Source of the DNA: Chrysoperla carnea
Taxonomy: Eukaryota > Arthropoda > Insecta > Neuroptera > Chrysopidae
Assembly (NCBI RefSeq): GCF_905475395.1
Contig: NC_058341.1
Coordinates: forward strand, 67,711,501-67,775,500
DNA length: 64,000 bases
Reading direction: 5' to 3'
The notes beneath the pieces were generated by a model. It was not told the DNA's origin, did not search any database, and was given only the letters and a program-made list of their open reading frames with translations. Positions 33,401 to 64,000 of this stretch are shown in pieces (positions within the stretch are counted from its first letter, which is position 1; each line of letters opens with the position of its first letter). The position numbers and the translations under genes are program-made.

Positions 33401-34520
33401 GATTTATTTACCAAGTTGAATGTAACAAATATTGACTTATGTATGTACACGATTTTGATAATGAAATGATTATACTGGAAAAAAAAGAAAACCCGACTAA
33501 AAACGTGTTCCGTATTTTCCAAAATAATATACATGAGATTTGTAGGATATTTTTCGCTCTTTAATTTTGATCATGAGACATTTTTGTCTAAAATGCACTG
33601 AAAATGAAATACTGAAAAAAAAGCAGGAAAATTTTATAACGTCACGCGATGTTTTGTTATAATATTTTGCCTACTTCTAAAAGGAAATATAAACAAACAA
33701 ATTTTTACAGTTTTAATATTGATTTGAATGCAAATCGCAAAACAAAACAAATTTTCCCAGTTTTAACATTTATTTGAATGTAAATCGCTATTATTAAATG
33801 TTAAGACGGTTAAGGTTGTTAGAAAATGGTCGGGGTAAAATACAGTGGGGATTTTGGTGGTAACCTAGTTTTCCCAGCATGTTTTGAGTGGAAGTCACGC
33901 CAAACGGCCCAATATTTTTGTAGGCCGCTATTATTTTCTCTTATTTTATTCATTTATTTTATGGTCAAATGGTTGTTCACATTTTTTCAATAGGTCGTTT
34001 AATGGACTGGTTCCGTTTCCCAATTTCAAAGGTTTTTAAAATATAAACATTGTAGGTTACACTTAAATGAAGCCACTCGCGAAGTTTCGTAAGAGTTTTA
34101 TTCAAGAAACCATACCTCCCTCTGTACTGAAGACTATAAGCTAAAACTAAAAGAAACTGTGGTTTCACTTTTCCGCTCAATTATTTAGTGCGGCTGAGTA
34201 CACTTCCTTCATAGATATGCCATGCACTACTTCACCAACTCATCACAGCTGAACCGTTCCTTGCAGATGCCTGAATTTGCCTCCATTATTCCTCCCTCCC
34301 AAAAAGGGACTAGGCGCTCCCCTGAGAGGGCAACTTTTTTTTACGAAGTTTTTACACTCTAATAAATAACTGTGGAAAATTTTAAAGATGCATGAATTTT
34401 TTCCTTGGGATATTTTAATTTCATTGTTCTACAAAGGTACCACTTAGATATAAAGTTGTTTACTTTAAAAAAGAGGTTAATTGAAACGTTTTTTGTTTTT
34501 ATTTTCAGAAATAAAAAGAA
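30434..34520. other. Intergenic stretch upstream of the LRR gene
   Basis: Mostly AT-rich with no host gene recognised. About 32375–32460 (plus strand) encodes ERKKISWMHNFKTWAAISLE, resembling the C-terminal (R)RRKxSWLxNLRxW segment of endonuclease/reverse-transcriptase LINEs, so a tiny LINE fragment is likely. At the far end 34501–34508 'attttcag' looks like a splice acceptor preceding the LRR gene's start codon, which implies an untranslated exon somewhere in this stretch; I could not place it. Confidence 0.4.
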
Positions 34521-34521
34521 G

Positions 34522-37500
34522 ATGCAGCGGCCATTTTTACTAACATCATTACAAATATTATTTCAAATGATTGTTGTAACAATATGCGCCAAAATAAATC
34601 ATTTAGATTTGATATCAGCAGCCTCAACACAAATCATTCCATGGCGGTGTCCAGAAATCGCACAACAACCAGCTGTTGAATGTTCGTGTGATATGCCTCA
34701 CACGCTACGTTGCAATGGTGACCGTCCAGAAGCAATGCAAATTATTGGTCGAAAATTGCGTTCATTACCACCTGTAGCCTCAGTCTCATTATTGGATTGT
34801 ACAGTTCAAAATGTTAGCGCACTGCCTGGACCACTGTTTGAAGGTGTTGCATTACATGGTTTAGTGGTGTCATCGGGAGCAATTAAGGATGTTCATAAGC
34901 ATGCATTCATGGGCTTAGCATCTCCGTTACAAGCGTTAGGTTTACCAAATAATCAATTGAGTACAATACCAACGGCAGCTTTAGCGGCATTACCAACATT
35001 AGATCGTTTAGATTTATCACATAATCTATTGCGAAAGTTGGATAACTCATCATTTAAGGTAAAATCAAAAATACAATTCAAATCTAAGTACTCTAGAAAA
35101 ACTTAGGGCGTAGCTGAGAGTTTTGGGATAGAAATTTCATAACTTTTTTCCAGATGGATTCATTTATATCAAAATATCGGACAGCACCAATTTCAAAAAT
35201 TATATTTTCTCCGTGTTCGTTAGATCTTTAGGAACATTCATCCCAACAAGAAACAGTCTAGAAAATATTCTGCCTCCGTAATTAGCTCTAACAGGTTTTT
35301 TGCCTTGGTGGAAACATTTTCAGTTTCTGAACACAGATGCGAGTTCAACTCACTATTGATCAGTTGTTTTCTATGTAAGAATGAGTCAAAGCAATAAATA
35401 GCTTAATAATGTGGATCATAGGTCGTTTTTCTTCTTTTGATGAAAGGATACCATTCTCGAAGTTTGTAGAAATATTTTTAGATCACCCTGTCCATTATGT
35501 CCATGTAATAAGTCCACTTATATTCGGGAAAACATCCTTTTCTAAGATACATGGTGTTCAAATTTTGGAAGCAAAAGAAAATTTTTGTGAATATGGCCAA
35601 GCCCAGTATTTAGAATAATTGGAAATTTGACAGTATCCTCCATGACAAAGATCCTTCTACTCCATTCATCTTAGAGTTTCACCTCGGAATCTAACGAAAT
35701 AAGCTGAATTTTTTCAGAAACCTTTATTTTGATAGATTAAATGACTCAAAAGTCACGTATGGTTACGTGTGCGTTGAGACAACATTTGTACTATCAAAAT
35801 AAAGGTTTGTAAAAAAAATTAACTTATTCCATTTGATTCCGAGGTTGACCACTTTTTTTGACTAAGATGGTGGGTTATTCATGATTAAGGATTAATTTCG
35901 ATAACCAGCAGTAAAGTTATGGTTGTGCATTCATCCTGATTCAAGAAAAAAATTTGCATCGCTACTACAGATTTATGCAATGCCCCACGCCTGGGAAATT
36001 TTCTAAACAGCCTTTTTGGCAATATTCACAATATAATTTTAATTAAACAAATTGTGTATCTACATTCTACACGGTAAGATTTTTTTGTGGATATCACTCT
36101 TTCAGTATCAGTGTAAACGCCATATTGTGTACTGTATAGAGGGAATAGTAATATTAGCAATAGTTATGGAGGACAATGCAGTATGGACGTCAGGTCTATA
36201 CTGTTTGACGATATGCTCAATAATTCTGGTGGATAGCCCTATTCAATACTGTGATATTACTTATGCTAACATAGATATTACTTATTAAGTATATGTCTGT
36301 ATGTCATACCATGAAGTATTGTAGTAAACGCCATACATTTCTTACCTTGAAAGGAGGATGCTTTCTCGACTCTAAGTGTACTGAGAAATTGTTATAATTT
36401 AAACGTTATCTACCCATTTGATGAAGTCCTGCTTTAATAATTTGAACCACTCTATAGAAATGAGATAATTATTAATTTTGTTCCATTTTTTTTACTAACA
36501 ACATGATTTTAAGAAAATATTTAAACTTTTTTTTCTTATTTTTACAGAGTCTAGAAAATTTAACATTTTTGGATCTAAGCGATAATAAAATCTCCGAAAT
36601 TAGCGAAGATGCTTTCACAACACTACCACAATTAAAAACACTACGTTTACGTGGAAATGGTTTAACAATTACTACAATACAAACATTAAAACCATTACCA
36701 GGTATCAATGATTTGGATTTAAGTTCAAATTCATTAATTGGACCATTAGGTCGCCGCTCAATATCACCAATGCCAACATTACAAATTTTACAATTATCAC
36801 ATAATGCAATAAGCAGTTTAAAAAAGGGTGCACTGAAAGGTTTCATCAGTTTAGTAACATTAATGTTACATCACAATCAGATTGATGTCCTAGAAGATCA
36901 TGCTTTTGAGAATTTATCAAATTTAACTCAACTCGATTTATCACATAATCGTATTGTGGCTGTATCCGGAGCATCGTTGGCGCATTTACATAATTTACTT
37001 GATTTAGATTTAAGTCATAATTTTTTACGTGCAATTACCGCCGATTTAATATTGCCACTAGAGAATTTAAAATCGTTAAATTTAGACGACAATGATATAT
37101 CGATAATCGCAAGTGATGCATTTCAACCAAATGTAAAATTAACAAAATTAAATTTAGCAGATAATCCACTAAATTGCGATTGCAGTTTAATTGAATTCGC
37201 TGTATGGTTATCAAATTCCGAACAATTATCATCCGAGGATAAAAAAACAATAATTTGTATGACTCCACCATCATTAGAAAATGCTTTATTATCTGAAATC
37301 AATTCAGAAAATTTACATTGTGGAGAGGATGAACATGAACCAATTATGGCTCCGCCACCACCAAGTTCGTTAATCGACGATGTTCCTGTCGCAAATATTC
37401 GTGTTACATTACGTAATTTAACGTATACTGCAAATCAAACCATTTTTGAATGGTCTATAGATGAAAATACAACAATTCCTTATACATGCGACAGTTTATT

Positions 37501-38374
37501 TATTTACGAAGATCTCCAAAATATTGGAGAAATGTTAATTGAAACACATAAAATCACTTGCAATAACAGTGATGATAATTTTAATCATATAACGTTAATT
37601 AATGAAAATATGGATTTAGAAATGAATCATAAATATCGTTTTTGTATTGTATTATTCGAGGGTAATTCACATTCTGATGATATTTCATTAATTGTCGGTT
37701 GTAGTGATATTATAACATTATTAAATGAAAATACAAAAAATATTAACGAAAATTTGGCAAGTATACCAAAAAAAATTACTGAAATTGAAAATATTTTTGT
37801 TGATTTTACAATTGGTAATATAATCGTGAATGTTAAAATGCGTGGTATAAAAAATTTATGTATATTAAATATTGAATTATTTAAAAATGCACAATTAGTT
37901 GATAATCAATATGTAAATTGTACAGAATCACATTATATATTTACTGGTTTATTAGATCATGGACCATATCAAATATGTGCATTAATTATTTTACAAAATA
38001 ATACTGACATTAATAATAATGAGGAATACATAAACTCACAACAACCAATATCGACCACAGCGACATCTCTAAGTCGATATTGTGTACCAGTTGAAATAAG
38101 TGGTGGTGGTAATCATTTATGGTCAACAACAGATAATACAAATCGTATAAATTTTAATAATATGACAAATGTAATTTTAGTTATAATATGTGTAACATTA
38201 TCAATAACTTTATTAATATTAATATGGGGTGTAAAACGTTTATTTAGTAAACCAAAAGTACAAAGTAATACTTTAGAGAATCCACATCATCAATATTTTT
38301 TACCACCGTCATCAGTCATTGAAGATGAGCAACATTCACGTTATGTTAAATTACATGCTACTACCAAATTATGA
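34522..38374 (+). CDS. Leucine-rich-repeat single-pass membrane protein
   Basis: Coding exons 34522–35058 and 36548–38374, joined in phase 0 (…NSSFK | SLENLTFL…), give 787 residues. The ATG at 34522 follows a splice acceptor and starts a signal peptide (about 1–23); the longer upstream frame has only a TTG start and crosses that acceptor. Next come a cysteine-rich N-terminal cap (CPEIAQQ…CSCDMPHTLRC), about ten 24-residue LRRs (xLxxLDLSHNxLxxL), and an LRR C-terminal cap (NPLNCDC…IICMTPP…LHC). Then a region with one or two diverged fibronectin-III-like folds and many N-glycosylation sites, a transmembrane helix near residues 718–741 (ILVIICVTLSITLLILIWGV) and a ~45-residue cytoplasmic tail ending ATTKL. 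Such proteins act as cell-surface adhesion or receptor molecules; ligand and exact orthologue are not determined. Mutual fit of repeats across the splice supports the model. Confidence 0.92.
35681..35846. repeat. Hairpin MITE in the LRR gene intron
   Basis: The left end 'acctcggaatctaacgaaat' with 'aaacctttattttgatag' is mirrored by 'ctatcaaaataaaggttt' and 'tttgattccgaggt'. The ~55-base arms enclose a ~55-base loop. It sits inside the 1.49-kb intron 35059–36547; the rest of that intron shows nothing recognisable. Confidence 0.8.
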
Positions 38375-44214: not shown

Positions 44215-47200
44215 ATGGACGGTAAGTTTTTTTTATTTATTTATAATATTTATTTAAATGATAATATAAACAAAATATAGGTGAAAATGTGAAAAATGAA
44301 GAATTCTGTTTAAAATTAGAAATCAAAGAAGAGGTTAATGACGAAATATTATATGAAGTGGATTCGAAAAATAATGAAATATGTGACTATATTAGTGATA
44401 ATAAGTTACATTCAGAATTAATTTTAAAAGATGAAAGCTATGATGAAATATTTGAAGAAGCTGAAACTGATTTAAATTATCATGAATTGTTAAAGGAAAA
44501 TTATTTTTGTGATAAAATATTTACAGCTGAAATTGAATTACGTAACAATGAAAAATTGCTCAAGCATAAATTGTATTCATGTGATGTGTGTGATGAAAAG
44601 TTTAAGCAACAACATTATTTAATTGTTCATAAACGAATTCATACTGGAGAAAAACCATTCTCTTGTGATGTTTGTGAAAAAAAATTTAACGGAAAACAAC
44701 ATTTAGTTGCACATAAACGATTACATACTAGAGAAAAACCATTCTCTTGTGATGTTTGTGAAAAAAAATTTAACGGAAAACAACATTTAGTTGCACATAA
44801 ACGATTACATACTGGAAAAAAACCATTCTCTTGTGATGTTTGTGAAAAAAAATTTAACGTAAAACAACATTTAGTTCGACATAAACGATTACATACTAGA
44901 GAAAAACCATTTTCTTGTGACGTTTGTGAAAAAAAATTTAACGGAAAACAACATTTAGTTGCACATAAACGATTACATACTAGAGAAAAACCATTTTCTT
45001 GTGACGTTTGTGAAAAAAAATTTAACGTAAAACAACATTTAGTTGCACATAAACGATTACATACTGGAAAAAAACCATTCTCTTGTGATGTTTGTGAAAA
45101 AAAATTTAACGTAAAACAACATTTAGTTCGACATAAACGATTACATACTAGAGAAAAACCATTTTCTTGTGACGTTTGTGAAAAAAAATTTAACGGAAAA
45201 CAACATTTAGTTGCACATAAACGATTACATACTAGAGAAAAACCATTTTCTTGTGACGTTTGTGAAAAAAAATTTAACGGAAAACAACATTTAGTTGCAC
45301 ATAAACGATTACATACTGGAGAAAAACCATTTTCTTGTGACGTTTGTGAAAAAAAATTTAACGTTAAACAACATTTAGTTGTACATAAACGATTACATAC
45401 TGGAGAAAAACCATTCTCTTGTGACGTTTGTGATAAAAAATTTGTTCACTCACAACTTTTAATTCGACATAAACGAACACATACTGGGGCAAAACCATTT
45501 TCATGTTATATTTGTGAAAAAAAATTTAAACACCAATGCGTTTTAGTAGCACATGAACGAATTCATACTGGAGAAAAACCATTCTCTTGTGATGTTTGTG
45601 AGAAAAAATTTAACATAAAACAGAATTTAGTTGTACATAAACGAATTCATACTGGAGAAAAACCATTCTCTTGTGATGTTTGTGAAAAAAAATTTAACGT
45701 AAAAGAACATTTAGTTCGACATAAACGATTACATACTGGAGAAAAACCATTCTCTTGTGATGTTTGTGAAAAAAAATTTAACCAAAAACAACATTTAGTT
45801 GCACATAAACGATTACATACTGGAGAAAAACCATTCTCTTGTGATGTTTGTGAAAAAAAATTTAACGTAAAACAACATTTAGTTCGACATAAACGATTAC
45901 ATACTGGAGAAAAACCATTTTCTTGTGACGTTTGTGAAAAAAAATTTAACGTTAAACAACATTTAGTTGCACATAAACGATTACATACTGGAAAAAAACC
46001 ATTCTCTTGTGATGTTTGTGAAAAAAAATTTAACGTAAAACAACATTTAGTTCGACATAAACGATTACATACTAGAGAAAAACCATTTTCTTGTGACGTT
46101 TGTGAAAAAAAATTTAACGGAAAACAACATTTAGTTGCACATAAACGATTACATACTGGAGAAAAACCATTCTCTTGTGACGTTTGTGATAAAAAATTTG
46201 TTCACTCACAACTTTTAATTCGACATAAACGAACACATACTGGGGCAAAACCATTTTCATGTTATATTTGTGAAAAAAAATTTAAACACCAATGCGTTTT
46301 AGTAGCACATGAACGAATTCATACTGGAGAAAAGCCATTCTCTTGTGATGTTTGTGAGAAAAAATTTAACATAAAACAGAATTTAGTTGTACATAAACGA
46401 TTACATACTGGAGAAAAACCATTCTCTTGTGATGTTTGTGAAAAAAAATTTAACGTAAAACAACATTTAGTTGTACATAAACGATTACATACTGGAGAAA
46501 AACCATTCTCTTGTGATGTTTGTGAAAAAAAATTTAACGTAAAAGAACATTTAGTTCGACATAAACGATTACATACTGGAGAAAAACCATTCTCTTGTGA
46601 TGTTTGTGAAAAAAAATTTAACCAAAAACAACATTTAGTTGCACATAAACGATTACATACTGGAGAAAAACCATTCTCTTGTGATGTTTGTGAAAAAAAA
46701 TTTAACGTAAAACAAAATTTTGTTCGACATAAACGATTACATACTGGAGAAAAACCATTCTCTTGTAATGTTTGTGAAAAAAAATTTAACGTAAAACAAA
46801 ATTTAGTTGTACATAAACGATTACATACTGGAGAAAAACCATTCTCTTGTGATGTTTGTGAAAAAAAATTTAACGGAAAACAACATTTAGTTGTACATAA
46901 ACGATTACATACTGGAGAAAAACCATTCTCTTGTGATGTTTGTGAAAAAAAATTTAACGTAAAACAACATTTAGTTCGACATAAACGATTACATACTGGG
47001 AAAGAATCATTCTCATGTGACGAATGTGAAAGAAAATTTAACTCAGAACACCATTTAATTAAACATAAACTAAAAAAACATACTACAGAAAAACCAGCAG
47101 CGTGTGATGGTCATAATAAAACATTTAAGTTTAAGAAGAGTTTAGTAAAACAAAGACTTGTACATTTAAGACCACCAACACCTCCATACGTATGTGAAGA

Positions 47201-47279
47201 TTGTGACCTAATTATTACCAATCAAAATGAATTAAAAGATCATAAACATAAAAATATTGTTATTTTAATAAACAAATAA
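44215..47279 (+). CDS. C2H2 zinc-finger protein with ~30 near-identical fingers
   Basis: Coding exon 1 is seven bases, ATGGACG (44215–44221); a 59-base intron (44222–44280, GTAAGT…ATAG) follows, and exon 2 runs 44281–47279. The join gives MDGENVKNEEFCLKLEIK…, 1001 residues. Exon 2 has no in-frame ATG near its beginning, which supports the mini-exon. Residues ~1–95 are acidic and may be an effector or interaction region. Then come about 30 canonical fingers of 28 residues (FSCDVCEKKFNxKQHLVxHKRLHTGEKP pattern), encoded by an 84-base repeat, a degenerate finger (AACDGHNKTFKF…), and a final C2H2-like motif (YVCEDCDLIITNQ). It likely acts as a nuclear DNA-binding regulator; the target is unknown. 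Fingers 11–12 and 20–21 are copies exactly 756 bases (nine fingers) apart, showing segmental duplication. AATAAA follows the stop. Confidence 0.95.
44570..47035 (+). repeat. 84-bp coding minisatellite (zinc-finger array)
   Basis: Tandem 84-base units, each one finger plus linker, near-identical at the DNA level, including at synonymous sites (alternating 'tcttgtgatgtttgtg' and 'tcttgtgacgtttgtg' types). Units differ mainly at three codons: the residue after FN (Gly, Val, Gln, Ile), occasionally the Gln/Glu–His/Asn pair, and the residue before the first zinc His (Ala, Arg, Val). Linkers vary among TGEKP, TGKKP and TREKP. Confidence 0.95.
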
Positions 47280-48510: not shown

Positions 48511-48523
48511 ATGTTTTGATTCA
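48511..48523 (+). repeat. LINE target-site duplication, left copy
   Basis: ATGTTTTGATTCA here is repeated exactly at 51820–51832, bracketing the LINE. Confidence 0.92.
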
Positions 48524-51500
48524 GGCATTGCAGAGAGAGCAACATTGAACTCATTATTGGATGTGACGCCAACGCGCACTGCGAGGCGTGGGGCAGCACA
48601 GACAATAATGGGAGAGGGCTCGATCTTCTGGAATATCTTACAGAAGAAAACTTGGATTTCCTGAACAGAGGGTCGGAACCGACCTTCGTCACAGCGGTAA
48701 GACAAGAAGTTTTAGACCTCACACTTTGCAACAGGAATGTGAGGAGCAGAATCAGAAATTGGAGAGTTTCTGAGGAACCATCGCTATCAGATCACCGGCT
48801 CATTAGGGCCCAATTAACGGAGATCTTGAAAGAAACTGAATGGAGAAGAAATCCCAGACAGACTAACTGGATAGGCTACGTAGAGGATCTTAAATCCCTG
48901 CTAACGGACTTTCAGGGTAGGTATGGAACGCCGGAGGATCTTGAAAACACGGACCGTGTGCTCAGAGATGCAATCCAGGCTTCATATGAAGAAAACTGTC
49001 CTTTGAAAAAGGTGGGACTGCAAGGTCACCATCTGAAATGGAGCAAGGAGTTAGAACACCTGAAGAGAGGGGTGAGAAAGCTTTTTAACAGGGCAAAAAA
49101 AGCGAAGACCGAGAGAGCTTGGTCGACCTATAAAGCTAGTCAAAAAGTCTACAGAGACCTTTTGAGGAAAAACCAGAGGGACTCTTGGAGAGATTTCTGT
49201 ACCAACACGAAATCTATGTCGGACGTAGCGAAGCTGTCAAAAGTTCTCGCCGGGAATAAAACCGAGGGGTTAAGGTTTCTGAAAAAAAGTGATGGTACAT
49301 ACACCTCCTCAGCACAGGAAACCTTACCGAATCGGAGTAGAAGGAAAAATTGGTCGCTGGCAGCGAAAATTGTAAAACCAGAACTGGTTAAAAGAGCGGT
49401 AAATTCTTTCGAAGCCTTTAAAGCACCAGGACCTGATGGAATATATCCGGTGCTTCTGCAGAAAGGCCTGGAAGTCTTCCTCGGGAAATTGACGGGCCTG
49501 CTTAGAGGCTGCATCGTGCTAGGCTTCACACCAAGAGAGTGGAAGGGGACTAAGGTTGCCTTCATACCAAAGGTTGGAAAGAAGGATTACACTCAAGCCA
49601 AAGATTATCGTCCTATCAGTCTGACTTCGTTCTTACTAAAGACCCTGGAAAGATTGGTGGACTGGTATCTGAAGAGAGAGACCCTGCGGGTCAGTCCCCT
49701 ACATGAGGAGCAACATGCCTATCAAACAGGCAAATCGACGGAAACGGCCTTGAATTCAGCTGTTAGCTTCATAGAACAACAGATACAAAACAAGGGAGTT
49801 TGCCTAGGAGCTTTTCTGGACATCGAAGGAGCTTTCAACAAGACCTCGAGGAGATCCATTGAAGCCGGAGCTAGAAGACATGATATACCTGAAGAAATAA
49901 TCCGATGGATCATGAGTACGCTAGACAACAGACAGCTGACTGCGGAATGGCAAGACAGTACAGTGAAAGGAACTGTGTCTGAAGGTTGCCCGCAAGGAGG
50001 GGTGTTGTCGCCTCTCCTATGGAGTTTAGTTGCGGACGAACTGATAGAAAAATTGAACCGTTTTGGAGTCAAAGCTATCGGTTATGCAGATGACATTGTC
50101 ATCCTGGTAAGAGGATCCTTTGAAGAGACACTGCAAGATATCCTTCAACAGGCGCTCGACCAGACGATGGATTGGTGCAATGAGAATGGTCTCAGCATCC
50201 AACCAGAGAAAGTTGGCATCCTAGTCTTCACTAGGAAATACAAGCTGAAACCTCTGAAAAAGATGAGGATCGGAAATAGACAGGTCGACTATTCGACGGA
50301 GATGAAATATCTGGGCATTATCCTGGACAACAGACTCCGATGGAACAAACACCCGGAAGCCACTTGTCGGAAGGCCATAGTTACCTTCTGGCAATGCAAG
50401 AGAGCCTTCGGCCTAAGATGGGGACTGGGACCAGAGCAGCTAATGTGGATTTACACGGCTATCATAGTTTCCAGGTTCGGTTATTCTGCCTTGGTCTGGT
50501 GGAGTAAAATAGAACAGACAACTGCCGAAAGACAGCTGGAGAGAATCCAGGCTCTCTTTCTGAGAAGTATATGTGGAGTCAGGAAAAGCACTCTGACAGC
50601 TGCCCTTAGAGCTCTGTTGGATGTACCACAGCTTTCTCTGACCATCAAAAGTACAGCAATGAAGTCTGCATACAGACTACACTGTATAGGACAATTGAGA
50701 AGATGGAATAGTGACCTGTCCAAACTTTTCAAAGGTAAACTGTTGGCTCTTAAAAACGAACCACAGGACAAAATCAGAACCCTATCGATGGAGGAGCAAC
50801 TCTACAAGATATGCCTTCCAACGAGAGAGGACTGGAAGGTCAGCAGAGGACCAAAACATGGCCAAATTTGGTTCACAGACGGCTCCAAAACCGCAGAGGG
50901 TGTTAGCGCAGGGTTCTTCCCAAGAAGGGCTAATGGCACATCCATCAAGTTGGACAGTTACAATACTGTATTCCAGGCGGAGCTGGTAGCCATCATGAGA
51001 TGTGCTGACTACCTCCAATTGGCCAACTTGAGGGATGATGTGATTAGCATCTGCACAGACAGTCAAGCAGCACTCAAAGCGCTATCAAACTGTACAGTGT
51101 CATCGCAACTCGTCAAGGAGACTAGAAACAGTCTAAAAAACCTGACGAGGAACAATAAAGTCAATATTACCTGGATCCCCGGACATACTGGCTGGAACGG
51201 TAATGAGAGAGCAGACAAGCTGGCCAAACTGGGAACCACCATGGCTCCCACTCAAGAAAAGCTTGCGAGGATGCCATACCAAGAAGGTCTTAACAGATTA
51301 GAAGATAATCTGAAAAACCAACAATTAAAGGCATGGACCAGCTACGAGGGAGGGCGAATCGCCAAAAGCCTGTTGGGTGAGGGAAACTCGCTCGGTAACA
51401 GAGCCGAGGAGATCTTGAAACTAAACAGAGCTGATATCAGAATCATCGTAGAATTACTCACAGGGCATGATAACCTGAACAAGTTCCAACATCAGATCGG

Positions 51501-51819
51501 AAAAAGACAATCTCCTGCGTGTGACAGATGCGGAATTTCAGAAGAAACATCGATCCATTTTCTCTGTTACTGCCCGGCGCTCACACAGCAGCGAAAGAAA
51601 TGGTTTGGTCCGGCCATAGTCGAACCAGAAGAAATTAGGAAACTCAGCGCTAGGCAGATCCTGGGTTTCTGTACATCAGTTGGTTATAATAGCCACTGAA
51701 ATGCGTAGCGGGGATAGAGTACAAGGGTCTATTTGGCTAAGTGCTCTGAACCATTGCTTCGAGGCCCGATGCTCGAGCATGGCCCGCTAACCTCTATACT
51801 CATACTCATACTCATACTC
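48524..51819 (+). mobile_element. 5'-truncated non-LTR retrotransposon (LINE) with target duplication
   Basis: The element is bounded by the 13-base duplication ATGTTTTGATTCA and ends in a short (ACTCAT)n hexamer tail instead of poly-A. The 5' end is cut within the endonuclease domain, as happens in incomplete target-primed reverse transcription. Its GC content is visibly higher than the host DNA. The exact duplication and open frame point to a recent insertion. Confidence 0.93.
48526..51699 (+). CDS. LINE ORF2 fragment: endonuclease end, reverse transcriptase, RNase H
   Basis: Open from the truncation point (an in-frame TGA in host DNA lies at 48517) to the stop at 51697–51699, about 1057 codons. 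First comes the C-terminal half of an AP-like endonuclease: IELIIGCDANAHCEAWGS, GRGLDLLEYL, and LSDHRLI. Then the reverse transcriptase: FKAPGPDGIYP, KDYRPISLTSF, EGCPQGGVLSPLLW, and the catalytic GYADDIVILV (YADD at 50082). Next an RNase H domain: IWFTDGSKT, FQAELVAI, CTDSQAALKAL, and WIPGHTGWNGNERADKLAKLG. Last, a cysteine motif CDRCGISEET…HFLCYC. The RNase H plus this terminal Cys motif suggests the I/R1/LOA group; clade not settled. The N-terminal endonuclease and any ORF1 are missing, so it cannot move by itself. The other catalytic residues look intact. Confidence 0.95.
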   Translation, partial: HCRESNIELIIGCDANAHCEAWGSTDNNGRGLDLLEYLTEENLDFLNRGSEPTFVTAVRQEVLDLTLCNRNVRSRIRNWRVSEEPSLSDHRLIRAQLTEILKETEWRRNPRQTNWIGYVEDLKSLLTDFQGRYGTPEDLENTDRVLRDAIQASYEENCPLKKVGLQGHHLKWSKELEHLKRGVRKLFNRAKKAKTERAWSTYKASQKVYRDLLRKNQRDSWRDFCTNTKSMSDVAKLSKVLAGNKTEGLRFLKKSDGTYTSSAQETLPNRSRRKNWSLAAKIVKPELVKRAVNSFEAFKAPGPDGIYPVLLQKGLEVFLGKLTGLLRGCIVLGFTPREWKGTKVAFIPKVGKKDYTQAKDYRPISLTSFLLKTLERLVDWYLKRETLRVSPLHEEQHAYQTGKSTETALNSAVSFIEQQIQNKGVCLGAFLDIEGAFNKTSRRSIEAGARRHDIPEEIIRWIMSTLDNRQLTAEWQDSTVKGTVSEGCPQGGVLSPLLWSLVADELIEKLNRFGVKAIGYADDIVILVRGSFEETLQDILQQALDQTMDWCNENGLSIQPEKVGILVFTRKYKLKPLKKMRIGNRQVDYSTEMKYLGIILDNRLRWNKHPEATCRKAIVTFWQCKRAFGLRWGLGPEQLMWIYTAIIVSRFGYSALVWWSKIEQTTAERQLERIQALFLRSICGVRKSTLTAALRALLDVPQLSLTIKSTAMKSAYRLHCIGQLRRWNSDLSKLFKGKLLALKNEPQDKIRTLSMEEQLYKICLPTREDWKVSRGPKHGQIWFTDGSKTAEGVSAGFFPRRANGTSIKLDSYNTVFQAELVAIMRCADYLQLANLRDDVISICTDSQAALKALSNCTVSSQLVKETRNSLKNLTRNNKVNITWIPGHTGWNGNERADKLAKLGTTMAPTQEKLARMPYQEGLNRLEDNLKNQQLKAWTSYEGGRIAKSLLGEGNSLGNRAEEILKLNRADIRIIVELLTGHDNLNKFQHQIGKRQSPACDRCGISEETSIHFLCYCPALTQQRKKWFGPAIVEPEEIRKLSARQILGFCTSVGYNSH

Positions 51820-54625: not shown

Positions 54626-55836
54626 AAGGAGGAAGGTTGTTTGAAAAGTAGAAATCGCTTATTTAGCTTATTTGAATTAAATGGGGCCGTGGAGGATGCT
54701 CAAAAGAAAGACTTTCACCTAGTTTATTATGTTTATAGTGCTCCGAACCAATATATGTTTATTATTTTATAATTTTTAATCCTCTGCGCCTAATACTCAA
54801 CATTTTATTTGTATCCGTCTAACGCAGTATAAAATGCGTGTTTCGCATGTCTCACTGTGGAGAACAAATGCCTGAACTTATTTTAACAAATGAGGAATTG
54901 TTAGAAGTATGGTAACGGTACGGGTAACATACGATAGACAACAAATGCGATGCTCATAGGAATCGGATTTACGGACGTAGGATGCCATAATGACTTCCAG
55001 GTTGATATGTTATAGAGAGCAAACACGCAAACTAATTTCAACAAACGAGGTATCTGTAGAAACGTGAAGACAGTCCGGGCAAGAAAAGATGAATTCCTAA
55101 GAATATATGGGTATTGCGGTCTCTTCGTCGCCATATTTTCCACGAAGTTCTTCTACTATGTAGCCAAAAATTCTTTAATTATTTAAATGAATGGCGTTTA
55201 AAATAAAAGTTTTAAATAACTTTTTAATAAATCTATGAATGAAAAATTTTGCCGGATAAATTTATTGTTTAATAATTAGTAAGTGGTCATTGTGTCCGAC
55301 AAATTTCCTGTTGCATTTTTTCAGACCCATAGCTTAAATATGACGCTATCGTACTTATTTGAGCACGCAGCACTTTCGAAAAAAGCCGTGGTAGTTTGTT
55401 AGACTCACGAAGTTTCAAGCATGTATTAATCATTATACAAATCACCCTTTCTGTCCCACGGTCTAAATAAATTAATCACCTTCGAAAATCCGAAACCAAT
55501 AGAAAACATATATTTTCTACCTACTCGGCTATTTAATCATCTAGTAGTAAATATAAGTAGACCTCATTTAGCCTTTCTTTATAATTTACACAAAATAAAA
55601 AACGATCTTTATTTTCTTTAGGTTTCGGGTTGATGATAACTTATTTTTTCACCGTAAGTAGTTAAATTTTTGTTAGTTATTAAAAATTTTTTGTCTAGTT
55701 ATTTAAAGGCATTTATTATGTTTATATCTAATTATCTTTTGAGCCAACCAGGAAACAGGATACTTGAAATCACAAGAGTGATAAAATAGTTGTTTATGTT
55801 CATTATGATGTTTCAGTTAGTTTGTATTTATTTACC
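54626..55836. other. Intergenic stretch upstream of the receptor gene
   Basis: Nothing recognisable. The 80-residue minus-strand frame at 54901–55143 has no supporting features. A promoter for the gene starting at 55837 would lie here, but no core element is distinctive. Confidence 0.45.
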
Positions 55837-58800
55837 ATGATTAGTTTGTGCATTTTTGTGTTAATTTTGTTATTTAATCCAATCAATGGAGAATCTAAAA
55901 AAAATAATTCAATCAAAATTGGTAAGAAAATTAAAGTATTTTGTTTTTTATATCTTTAAGATTAAAAAAAAATACATTTTCCAATTTACGAAGGATCGTT
56001 TTATAGTCAAATCAATTTCTAACACAATCAATTTGTAATTATTATTCCCGGTCTACCTACATCGTGAACCTACTCATTAATTATAATTTAATTTAATTTG
56101 CCGATCCCGGATCTGCAAATTCTAAAAAAAAATCGCAAATCGAGGCTCAATAAGATCAGGGCTATTTCGAAAACTGGGATTGTTGGAAAAATTCAATATA
56201 ATTTATACATAAAATAAAACACCGAAAAAACACCATTCGAATCTATGTATTCAAGCGAAACTGTACATATAAAACATACAAGCTATTTTTTTTTAGTTGA
56301 CATATTCTTGAAATTCGAAAAATAGCTTTTATCGATGAAAATGCTTCAAACGAAAAATGTTTGGTGAGTAGGCGCACAACATACACAGACATTAAACGTG
56401 ACTTAGGTTTTCAAGCTCACTTCATATTTGGTAATCGATAGATGAACACTTTAAGAAATTTAAAAAAATAACATTTTTGATTCGTAACATTTTTCCGCAA
56501 ACCGTACAGTTTAGGCAAAAACAGACAAGTTTTACCCAAAATTGTTATTTCGTATAATTGTTTCTGCGAAATCAAGGCACAATTTGGAAAAAATTATCCA
56601 ATAAATCCAATAAAAGTGGTTTGTTTTTCTATAAAGACCACTTTATTTCAAATTGAATGAACAAACGTACAAAAAGCTAGATTTTTGCTATCAATTATAA
56701 CTGCCTAAACTACTCGGTTTACACCAAGCCAAGAACAATAAATTTCATTTCAATATTGTAATTATTTATAAAGAACAACTTTCTAATTTAAAGCAATCAT
56801 TTAATGTTTATCAGTTATGAATCAGAGTGAGTTTTTAATTGAACCTGAAAACGATGCCGAGTAAGATCCAATTCGATGCTAATATTTTTCGTTCGATTAA
56901 ATTTATTTATCATATGTCAACTTAAAAAAAACACCCTGTAAATGGTATGCATGAAAGGGCGGCAATTCTTATTTTTGCACCGAGTGGGAAAATAGCTAAA
57001 TCGGGCCCGTTTTATAGATTGTTGTAATATCGTCAAAAATCTCACATTAATATTTTTTCAGATAGTACTTAAATATAAATTAAAAAATTTGAAAAAAAAT
57101 ATGGTTTAACATGAAACAATTTACTATCGTTGGAAATTTATCTTAAAGTTTTCTCGAATTTACGTTTTCATTGTAAGCTAAAAAAATGTTTAGATAATTA
57201 GCGTAAAATTTTTTGGCTTCGTGGAGACATTCTTATTTATATACTTAAGATCACGTCAAAAGCGCTTAAAAAATTTTAATACTTTATTTATAATAACTTT
57301 TTTAAGTAAAAATTAATAACCAAAAATTATATAATTATATAAGAAGGACTACTCGAAGCCAAAAAATTTTACGCCAATTATTTAGCTTACAATGAAAATG
57401 AAAATTCGAGAAAATTTCCCTAAACGGTTTATGTTTCTAAACTATTTTTCATAAAGTCGATGGTTTCCGAAATATTGGCCAAAAATTTTTTATGTATACA
57501 TAGTGTTAATTAACGCAAACCCAGCACTTCTGAAATTGGCGTTAGAAGGGTCTTAAACTAGATGCCAAAACCTTCCTATTTTTTAGTTTTTTTTCCTTTG
57601 TTTATGAAATCGCTTATTTTCAGTTATTTTAAACGGCCTAACACGAAAAATATCATAAATATTTTATAAATTAAAAATATTAAAATAAAATTATAATAAA
57701 TATTTTTAATTTTTTTAAATATTAAAAATTTTTACGTAAACTTTGTACAGAGCCTTTTTTATAAACTCGCGAACGTAAAATTAACTCACGAACAAATTTT
57801 ATAATAGCTAAAACTGCCTCACTAACTTAATAGTTTACAAAATATTTGAAAAAAACCTATTTTCACGAGAAAATTTCTTTCATAGATCATTTCTTGCGTC
57901 CAAATAAAGGTTATCCGAGTGAAAAAAACACTTTGATTTTTTAAGCTGATCGACTGTTTTTATACCATGCATATATGTAATATGCAAGGTATACTAAGTT
58001 TAGTCCCAAGTGTGTAACGCTTAAAAATATTGATGCTACGCACAAAATTTTGGTATAGGTGTTCATAAAATCACCTAATTAGTCCATTTCCGGTTGTCCG
58101 TCCGTCCGTCTGTGGACACGATAACTCAAAAACGAAAAAAGATATCGAACTGAAATTTTTTCAGCCGAGTTCAGTCGAGTTAGTAAATGAGCACCATAGG
58201 TCAATTGGGTCTTGGGTCCGTAGGACTCATCTTGTAAACCGTTAGAGATAGAACACAAGTTTAAATGTAAAAAAATGTTCCTTATAACAAAATAAACAAC
58301 TTTTGTTTGAAACATTTTTTCGTAAACATCATTGTTTACCCAGGAGGGCTCCAATTAGGCGGAAATTTTATAGTATGTACTATTATTGAATATCAGTTAT
58401 GTATGTGTCACATGTATGTATACTCAATGTCACAAAAAATGCTCGTTTTAAAACATTCTAAGTGTTACTATTATAACATAACATATGATGCGTACGCTTA
58501 GAATGGTTTTAACTGTGGCACTTTTTCTGACAGTGAGTGTATGTGTTATGTGATAAAAAAATCAAAACTGACTATGCATGGTATTTCAACTATTAACTCT
58601 GTCAATTGTTTGTTTTCACTTGTTTTTATATTATTTTTCTAGGCTATAATAGAGTGCTAAACACAAAAGCTCTCTTTTTTAGGTCGAGTAACAAGTAATT
58701 TATGAACTCCCAAATAAGCAAACAAATATAATAACTTCGGTGTAAAATAAAAATGTAAAATATATTAGAGAAAACGTACCTATACTACTATAGGGCAAAA

Positions 58801-61154
58801 TGTTTCCACTCAAAGATGTTCCTCACTCGTGTTTCTGAATGCTGAAACATGGTGTTGTTTATTAACTTATATATTCATCGACACTAAGACTGCAATAATA
58901 ATTTATTTTTGTTGAATATCGATTCATTTACCATTTATAAACAAATTTTAATTATTTTTTCTAGATTATACAACATGTAAAAAGTTAATAACTAATCATG
59001 GCTATGGTTACAAAAATTTTTACGAAATAACTGAATTAGAAAATCATTCGCCAAGATACATTCTAGATTTACATTTTGCAGTCCAAGCAGCAAGGGATGC
59101 TCATATTCTATTAACACCATCACCAGATGTTACTATCAACGATCCAGTCTATGAAATAGTTTTGGGTGGTGGTTTAAATACATTTACTGATATTCGACGG
59201 CAAAAACATCGTAATACAAAAACCACAGCACAAACAAAAAATTTATTATCACGGCATGAATTGAGACCATTCTGGTTGCGCGTGTCTACAGGTAAAAATA
59301 AAAAATTATTATTTAAAAAAAGAAAATGAAAAAACTGTTTTAGGCCACAGCCAAGATAATCACGGAAACAAAGCAATGAAGTTCGAAAAATTTGAACAAT
59401 AAGTCGGATTTGAATGCGGTTTTCTGCATTCGATTCATTAGAGCGTCAGGAAATTTTGTGACCCAAATTGATTAATAAGAAATTAAAAATACGCAATATG
59501 CATTTTATAATTATACCATGCATATATGTAATATGCAAGTATACTAAGTTTAGTCCCAAGTTTGTAACGCATAAAAATATTGATGTTAAGAAAAAAATTT
59601 TGGTATAAATTTTCATAGAATCACCTAATTAGTCCATTTTCGGTTGTCTGTCCGCCTGTCCGTCTGTCTGCCAACACATAACTCAAAAACGAAAAGAGAT
59701 ATCAAGATGAAATTTTTACAGCGTACTCAGGACGTAAAAAGTGGAGTCAAGTTCGTAAATGAGCAACATAGGTCAATTGGGTCTTGGGTCCGTAGGACCC
59801 ATCTTGTAAACCGTTAGAGATAGAACAAAAGTTTAAATGTAAATGTTCCTTATAAAAAACTAAACAGCTTTTGTTTGAAACATTTTTTCGTAAACATCAC
59901 TGTTTACCCGTGAGGGTGTAAATTAGGCGTAAATTGTGTAGTATGTATTATACGGGAATATCAGCTATATTAGTTATGCTTGTGTGGCATGTATGTGTAA
60001 TGTGATAGAGTAATCAACACTGTTTATGCATGGTATTAAACAATTAACTTAATCAATTGTTTGTTTTCACTTGTTGTATTTTAAATTCACCATAAATAAA
60101 CTAAATTCACAATTCGGTTAATAGTGATGAAAATGATTCCAAACTTGTTACCCGGTGGTTTTTGGGGTCGCTGAACACGAATATTGCGGACCTGTTTGTT
60201 TTTGAAAATTGATGGACTGCCGCTGACACTTGAAGGGGTTAGCGACCAAAATGATCCCCCTAAGGTAGAAGTATGACAAAATATCAACAAAATATAAATT
60301 TTTTTATTAACTTTCCTAGCAGTACTTGCGGAATTAACATTTGGGTCAATTTCAAAACTTCAAATACTTATTAAGAGACGGGTAAAGATAGAGGCTCGAG
60401 ATTTGGTTCAAAATACGTATTTTTGAAATCAATAAATCAAAAATCCCAAAAGACCGCCTTTTTCCAAATTTTTTCAAAAAACTCGACAATAAGAGATCGT
60501 TCCGGTGCAAATTTTTGTGAAACTTTTTTGGATTTTCGTTCATGATAACATTTCTAACCCGCCCCCGATGATCACGAAGTGTATACCTTAAAAATTTTTC
60601 TTTCTGTTTACTTAGATGGGTTAATTCAAATGGGCAACGAAGGGGAAGAACTTGCATTTGTATCTTGGAAAGATCCCGATCCATTACCAATTCGATATGT
60701 AAGTTTTGGTACATGGACGAATGTGGAGGCTGAATGGATGTTTGATTGTAAATTACCAGTATCGAATTATACAGAAGAAGGAAGTATATTACTTGATGTA
60801 CCTAAAAATATTCCAACGGCCCAAAAATTATATAACGATTTATTTAATGAATACGACCCATATGTTATGCCACAATTTGTAAATGAACCATTAATATTGT
60901 TGCTGAACTTTAAACGGCCACGAATTTTGAATATTAACGAGCAAAAATCTATGATTCGATTACAAGCCATTGGTGATTTGGTAATAAATAATTTCAAATA
61001 ATTTCTAACAATTGAATATGTTTTGATTTTGATTTTTCTTTTTGTAGAAATGGCATGATTCAAAGTTAAAATGGACGCCCAGTACTTATGATAATATTAC
61101 ATTTATCAAATTAAAAAACAGAAATATTTGGTTGCCAGAAATTCATTTGTATAA
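55837..61154 (+). CDS. FAMeT-domain / Cys-loop receptor-like protein, 5' part of gene
   Basis: Exons 55837–55921, 58965–59291, 60616–60980 and 61048–61154 join in phases 1, 1 and 0; all introns are GT–AG and the last donor (61155) leads out of the window. 294 residues are readable. Residues 1–18 are a signal peptide (MISLCIFVLILLFNPINGES). Residues ~30–184 match the farnesoic acid O-methyltransferase-type domain (Methyltransf_FA): YKNFYEITELENHSPRYI, DAHILLTPSP, YEIVLGGGLNTFTDIRR, RPFWLRVS, VSWKDPDPLPIRYVSFGTW, and EAEWMFDC. From ~203 it becomes the ligand-binding domain of Cys-loop channels: TAQKLYNDLFNEYDPYVMP, LKWHDSKLKWTPSTYD, and NIWLPEIHLY, like the nicotinic WxDxRLxW and IWxPDIxLYN motifs (Glu for Asp here). 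The Cys-loop, channel helices and stop lie beyond. The product is probably a membrane receptor with an extra extracellular domain. The FAMeT domain's enzymatic role is disputed. Confidence 0.88.
57957..58625 (+). repeat. Family A repeat in receptor intron 1, with nested insertion
   Basis: A full-length family A copy from 'tataccatgcatatatgtaa' to 'gtcaattgtttgttttcact', within the 3.0-kb first intron (55922–58964). A ~120-base element interrupts it at 58421. The rest of the intron shows no gene. Confidence 0.85.
58421..58540. mobile_element. ~120-bp palindromic MITE nested in family A
   Basis: The left end 'ctcaatgtcacaaaaaatgc' and right end 'ggcactttttctgacagtga' are imperfect complements, as are 'acattctaagtg' and 'gcttagaatggt'. 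Compared with the uninterrupted copies ('catgtatgtatgtgttatg'), the insertion lies at a TA, again mariner-like. Confidence 0.7.
59512..60076 (+). repeat. Family A repeat in receptor intron 2, full-length
   Basis: A clean copy from 'tataccatgcatatatgtaa' to 'caattgtttgttttcacttg', about 0.565 kb. It occupies much of the 1.32-kb intron 59292–60615. It is a good reference for the family's layout. Confidence 0.88.
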
Positions 61155-63480: not shown

Positions 63481-64000
63481 TATATAAATTTCAAAACAAA
63501 ATTATAATGAATCTACGTTTCATGGGTTCAATTATTCAATCCGCCAAAAAATTTTGTTATTTTTAAAATGTTATTGACGTTTATAAGGAAATAATCTAGG
63601 TAAATACTTTTAAATAGTAAATAGTCGAACGAGGTCTAAGGCCCGACATACACGTTTCGATATACCGGACAGGTTTACCTGAACAGGTCACTTGTATGAC
63701 TGCTGGCATATCTGTGCAGGTGTAGCGACCAATGCAGGCGATCGGATAAGAATTGAAATTCAATTTTTATTACCGGCACAAGCGAAGATACCTGATAGCA
63801 TGTGTGAGTGGTCCGGCAAACCTGCGCAGACATAAAGTTAGGTGTGGCTTATTCTTGGGTAGAGAACAGTCTTTCATGGGGAGACATAGTAGTTCTCGTA
63901 ACTTTATTTGTCTTTTGAATTGGGGAAGTTGCAAGTGATACTAGTTTTTGGTTGAATTCTTCATTCATCCGCAAGTAATTACGGTAATATAATGGCTCTA
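63481..64000. other. End of window, possible incomplete element
   Basis: From about 63640 the DNA becomes GC-richer with 'ggcccgacatacacg', 'ccggacaggtttacctgaac' and 'ggtccggcaaacctgcgcag', hinting at a separate inserted element that continues past the window. No exon of the receptor gene was recognised; the 61-residue frame here is unsupported. Confidence 0.35.

Follow-up and report, generated by a model that had tools for sequence, protein, structure and literature searches.

In the bacterial channel DeCLIC two mobile jelly-roll lobes precede the core, pack against the ectodomain from outside and affect gating, according to excerpts of its structural description (PMC9897478). According to the same excerpts, no eukaryotic homolog has been observed to carry such extra N-terminal domains on a pentameric ligand-gated ion channel (pLGIC) (PMC9897478). 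For FAMeT proteins, an insect survey reports, in its excerpted text, the pfam12248-DUF3421 type only (PMC10015273). Our literature searches returned no description of a FAMeT-receptor fusion. PF12248 is listed beside PF02931 and PF02932 among the 83 Pfam families of a 2016 "GABA-A receptor" protein set, a noisy list taken here from excerpts that include Table 1 (PMC4992803, Table 1). Thus similar proteins may already sit unremarked in UniProt or other databases.

We analyzed a window of 64,000 bases of the Chrysoperla genome (559 Mb, 337 contigs), located at C5:67711501-67775500; positions are given on the window scale unless a contig is named. Based on splice sites and reading frames in this one genome, we found a single host gene of nine exons on the + strand (C5:67767337-67779309), which encodes a product of 589 residues and ends in TAA. 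Exon 1 (55837..55921, donor GTAAGA) carries the ATG and a signal peptide (MISLCIFVLILLFNPINGES...) with its hydrophobic peak centered on residue 10. Exon 2 (58965..59291, acceptor TTCTAG, donor GTAAAA) encodes the FAMeT domain from its start through its middle part. Exon 3 (60616..60980) contains the end of the FAMeT match (to 60752), a 23-residue linker with the N-glycosylation motif NYT, and the start of the ligand-binding domain (LBD, from 60822). Exon 4 (61048..61154) continues the LBD from loop D to loop A (KWHDSKLKW...IWLPEIHLY), and its region was also a PF02931 match in the search of the own genome (C5:67772515-67772664). Intron 4 (61155-64659) is interrupted by the window end at 64000. 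In 60 kb fetched downstream, reading frames and splice sites revealed exons 5-9, also on the + strand (64660-64879, 64947-65133, 65614-65766, 67409-67575 and 67651-67809 on the window scale; C5:67776160-67779309), which supply the rest of the LBD, M1-M4 and the TAA stop.

Exons 1-4 are entered in phases 0, 1, 1 and 0 and exon 5 in phase 2, with GT-AG borders. The initial annotation had described four exons with matching phases and no stop between them, and this was borne out: spliced, they encode 294 residues plus 2 bases. The 294 residues it gave make up half of the 589-residue product. The spliced frame contains one stop, the terminal one, and the other two frames contain 49 and 45; in 2000 base shuffles the mean was 48.7 stops and the minimum 28.

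Since the end of the FAMeT domain and the start of the LBD both lie within exon 3, which sits inside a single stop-free frame of 147 amino acids, the fusion does not depend on a guessed splice. The earlier claim of a fusion within one exon (60616–60980) holds in this respect. Two unrelated domains at a locus where introns are long and dispersed repeats occur might suggest that two neighboring genes, or sequences joined in assembly, were mistaken for a single gene. However, the FAMeT end and the LBD start are separated by 70 bases in one stop-free exon frame, the remaining LBD and M1-M4 follow in phase, and the whole gene takes up less than 12 kb of a 76-Mb contig. These observations largely refute such an artefact, which we consider very improbable. 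From its sequence the locus is very probably a real gene with the architecture signal peptide, FAMeT, LBD and M1-M4.

The search of the own genome also found a copy of exon 1 on another contig, at C4:612004. The copied region spans 55568-56002, exon 1 included, in pieces of about 260 and about 80 bases with about 82% identity. Exon 1 and its copy differ at 5 of 85 bases, and 3 of these 5 differences alter an amino acid; thus exon 1 is without a clear sign of constraint. We found no protein-level match to the gene in C4:613501-622000, where weak short DNA matches look like chance, and the own-genome search listed no other protein-level match near the copy. The copy therefore looks like a duplicated 5' piece and was rejected as a paralog. 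We infer that exon 1 belongs to the gene.

Pfam searches with the 294 residues identified Methyltransf_FA (PF12248) at residues 39-183 (E 4.7e-42) and Neur_chan_LBD (PF02931) at residues 207-294 (E 9.7e-17), both above their curated cut-offs. This agrees with the initial annotation of a signal peptide followed by a FAMeT domain and the start of a nicotinic-type LBD. The FAMeT match corresponds to 58994..60752 on the + strand (coordinates derived by hand from the residues) and is split by intron 2, with C33 and C182 at its two ends. With the full 589 residues PF12248 scored E 9.9e-42 (142.4 bits, cut-off 24.2) and PF02931 extended over residues 207-391 (E 3.8e-24, 85.8 bits, cut-off 26). Neur_chan_memb (PF02932, E 0.021) and the NCBIfam LIC model (residues 206-512, E 9.6e-16) fell below their cut-offs, and the Pfam scan found no DM9/DUF3421 in the product. 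Four hydrophobic peaks correspond to M1-M4, including the M2 pore helix, with a short M3-M4 loop of about 55 residues between hydrophobic spans. When the membrane half was searched alone, 44 of the 45 matches were nAChR chains (best E 2.2e-5; the remaining match, E 0.98). M2-M3 align without gaps to an nAChR beta chain, and M4 aligns in a weak second stretch. The receptor ectodomain alone likewise matched nicotinic-type chains (best E 8.4e-15, among the best 60 of 147 matches).

The initial annotation had called the protein a Cys-loop receptor and proposed that the Cys-loop and the membrane helices be sought downstream. Five channel exons with M1-M4 are there, and so is the Cys-loop stretch, but both of its cysteines are missing. 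The product has cysteines at residues 5, 33, 182, 441, 454, 485-487, 519 and 555 and none in the receptor ectodomain (residues 183-440), which has thus lost the pair of the Cys-loop as well as that of loop C. Two ectodomain cysteines 13 residues apart, the mark of the Cys-loop, are replaced by Asn331 and Phe345, as counted without gaps from the conserved Pro339; MAFFT puts a one-residue gap there. In the same genome C-x13-C is kept in 14 of the 14 other pLGIC exons with a readable stretch. This yardstick derives from 52 LBD matches, 30 of them with a locus, one being the present gene; 15 of the other 29 loci were without the stretch, and 22 matches were left unread. Vicinal loop-C cysteines, by which nAChR alpha subunits are defined, do not occur in the product. 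Before M2, NYAK with Ala at -1' takes the place of the GEK motif, whose Glu marks a cation-selective nAChR pore. The absence of ectodomain cysteines, of the loop-C pair and of the -1' Glu indicates a divergent Cys-less pLGIC subunit. As judged from these residues, the product is a pLGIC subunit but does not qualify as a Cys-loop receptor when the term is used strictly, and the earlier label does not stand.

The M2 stretch has Ala at -1', Gly at 2', Phe at 6', Leu at 9' and 13' and Met at 20', and the -4' Glu is kept. In the phmmer alignment aromatic residues occupy the positions of Y93, W149 and Y190 of Torpedo nAChR alpha, while conservation fails at the Cys-Cys and Y198 positions and W55 was not seen, the loop C alignment being uncertain. 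The neurotransmitter site, to which these residues contribute in nAChR alpha, is therefore kept only in part. A homomeric channel with its own, new specificity, whose hydrophobic pore would be opened by a ligand bound to the cap or to the aromatic pocket, would be consistent with these aromatics, with the complete set of M1-M4, and with the 9' Leu and the -4' Glu. However, the vicinal cysteines and Y198 are gone, and the residues at -1', 2', 6' and 20' would make a homomeric pore unusually hydrophobic. We regard this channel as improbable. The -1' Glu is missing elsewhere too: Tribolium Tcas-alpha9 is described as lacking the GEK Glu in excerpts of a study of that species (PMC2064938).

We found one other FAMeT locus in the genome (C1:88.999-89.005 Mb), which looks like the ordinary FAMeT plus DM9 type; none of the at least 14 DM9 matches in the genome lies on C5. 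When the FAMeT alignment was run against genome_contigs, 35 stretches fit a pattern and one was a relative, the bacterial sequence L058, in which the FAMeT frame overlaps a caspase-like frame. The same alignment found no relative in viral_contigs. For the full product the sole viral_contigs candidate (L060) was rejected as chance, since by eye none of the listed surrounding frames looked receptor-like.

The fold was predicted on the bacterial FAMeT relative and not on the Chrysoperla domain, to which the relative has 21% identity (30 and 34% when the exon pieces are compared separately). Two of the five models exceeded pLDDT 60 and the other three lay at 30-35; without the window rows the relative's sequence gave no folded model (pLDDT 37). 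The low-confidence model is a galectin-like jelly roll. Its galectin matches have 5-14% identity among the matches listed, and the galactoside-binding signature was not evident by eye in the comparison with galectins. A PDB sequence search with the FAMeT domain gave four matches, none meaningful (best E 0.88), and a PDB search with a four-sequence FAMeT profile gave no match. In a literature search for FAMeT and galectin, FAMeT terms appeared in none of the 20 papers among the matches listed. We think it somewhat more likely than not that the cap has a lectin-like fold.

A galectin-like jelly roll suggests that the domain binds something as a cap and is not a methyltransferase. Should the FAMeT part instead be a farnesoic-acid methyltransferase tethered to the receptor, hormone would be made at the membrane, as the family name might imply. 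Knock-out and overexpression of silkworm FAMeT6 have reportedly been tested for effects on juvenile hormone titer (PMC10380277), which would count toward such an enzyme. However, the domain would sit outside the cell, and the predicted fold of the relative is galectin-like. Excerpted accounts further state that methylation by FAMeT in vitro was never reliably shown (PMC10015273) and that fly CG10527 was concluded to be uninvolved in methylation (PMC4361637). We consider a tethered enzyme very improbable. The window FAMeT domain has GGG where three aligned relatives have GGW, and with this Trp missing, binding by the Chrysoperla copy may be lost.

Both halves of the protein have lost conserved residues, which could equally reflect a subunit drifting out of function. 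Divergent, poorly conserved nAChR subunits do occur in insect genomes, according to excerpts of the Tribolium study (PMC2064938), and here the fusion would be real and the channel role gone. Against such decay, the 589 codons contain no internal stop, the splice sites fit throughout and the LBD still scores as strongly as reported above. We judge decay unlikely, though it deserves more weight than a homomeric channel.

The explanation that we favor overall, and hold to be somewhat probable, is an intact fused gene for an accessory pLGIC subunit with a partner- or glycan-binding cap. The subunit would be secreted and then inserted into the membrane, with a nicotinic-type core and an extra folded N-terminal FAMeT domain. 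This domain would form a cap outside the cell, directly ahead of the N-terminal helix of the LBD and near the top of the pentamer; its extracellular placement follows from the established topology of pLGICs. The cap would be a galectin-like jelly roll that binds a glycan, matrix or a partner protein and not a methyltransferase. The subunit would join ordinary alpha subunits as an accessory non-alpha partner in a heteromeric receptor, a role that seems most likely because it has lost the cysteines of loop C, the disulphide of the Cys-loop and the pore acids at -1' and 20'. Binding by the cap would then tune assembly, placement or gating. The sequence allows us to propose an accessory subunit with a specifically modulatory or tethering cap tentatively, at somewhat less than even chance. 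The cap idea is plausible in that it fits both the predicted galectin-like fold of the relative and the bacterial DeCLIC precedent.

At the level of sequence, the Chrysoperla gene is a counter-example to the absence of N-terminal domains from eukaryotic pLGICs as stated in the DeCLIC excerpts (PMC9897478). The fusion also breaks the rule, as given in the excerpted insect survey, that FAMeT in insects comes in the FAMeT-DM9 type only (PMC10015273), and it suggests that FAMeT serves for binding and not as an enzyme. Because nAChR subunits are insecticide targets, as the abstract of the Tribolium study notes (PMC2064938), an accessory subunit that carries one more domain on the outside might also matter in practice. 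A bolder reading, which we think rather unlikely, is that this Cys-less nicotinic-type subunit is the first pLGIC from an animal to have a folded sensor domain at its N terminus, and that its galectin-like FAMeT cap would read extracellular host-matrix or microbial glycans and signal to the channel as an independent counterpart of the DeCLIC design.

Compared with nAChR subunits, especially divergent insect ones, the Chrysoperla product shares the order of LBD and M1-M4 and similarity over both halves, but it has FAMeT in front and neither the Cys-loop cysteines nor the loop-C pair. With the FAMeT proteins of insects and crustaceans, which combine PF12248 and DM9/DUF3421 (for example fly CG10527), it shares the Pfam family at a high score; in contrast to them it is without DM9 and is joined to an ion channel. 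The likeness to galectins lies in the predicted fold of the PF12248 relative, and the difference in the low identity given above for the matches listed. DeCLIC and other bacterial pLGICs, as described in excerpts of the DeCLIC study, likewise have one or more folded beta domains before a core without a Cys-loop (PMC9897478). In contrast, the Chrysoperla cap is one FAMeT copy in an animal gene with a signal peptide and a nicotinic-type core, and the likeness of the caps is one of arrangement.

A second copy of exon 1 of the FAMeT-pLGIC gene, together with the region upstream of it (window 55568-56002), was observed on another chromosome at C4:612004 (L054). This copy of the window segment is made up of pieces of approximately 80 and 260 bases with 82% identity. 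Within exon 1 itself the two sequences differ at 5 of 85 bases and the donor site is intact in the copy. We found no protein-level match to the remainder of the gene within C4:613501-622000, next to the exon 1 copy. Another gene at C4:612004 may be using a common signal-peptide exon.

A few kb 5' of the gene a non-LTR retrotransposon carries an open frame of 1059 aa on the forward strand (window 48520-51696), which encodes an endonuclease, a reverse transcriptase and an RNase H. A short dispersed repeat of approximately 200 bases was also observed in introns 1 and 2 (58104-58299 and 59648-59859), with several further sites in the window and downstream.

Two other coding regions were found on the forward strand. 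At 44265-47276 a single frame of 1004 aa (zf-H2C2_2 match, E 6.7e-218) consists of C2H2 zinc fingers in tandem, and the high similarity of these fingers suggests recent internal repeat growth or conversion. At 34396-38371 two adjacent frames encode leucine-rich repeats (LRR_8) and are probably exons of a single gene.

Additional divergent pLGIC exons (L024, L038 and L057) are clustered at C2:59750780-59760133. Their ectodomain motifs are altered, and C-x13-C is present in both of the exons that contain the Cys-loop stretch (L024 and L038).

Finally, a FAMeT domain occurs in a deltaproteobacterial MAG (L058, 1415-2963), where the frame encoding it and a caspase-like (Peptidase C14) frame overlap. 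FAMeT is therefore not limited to arthropods.
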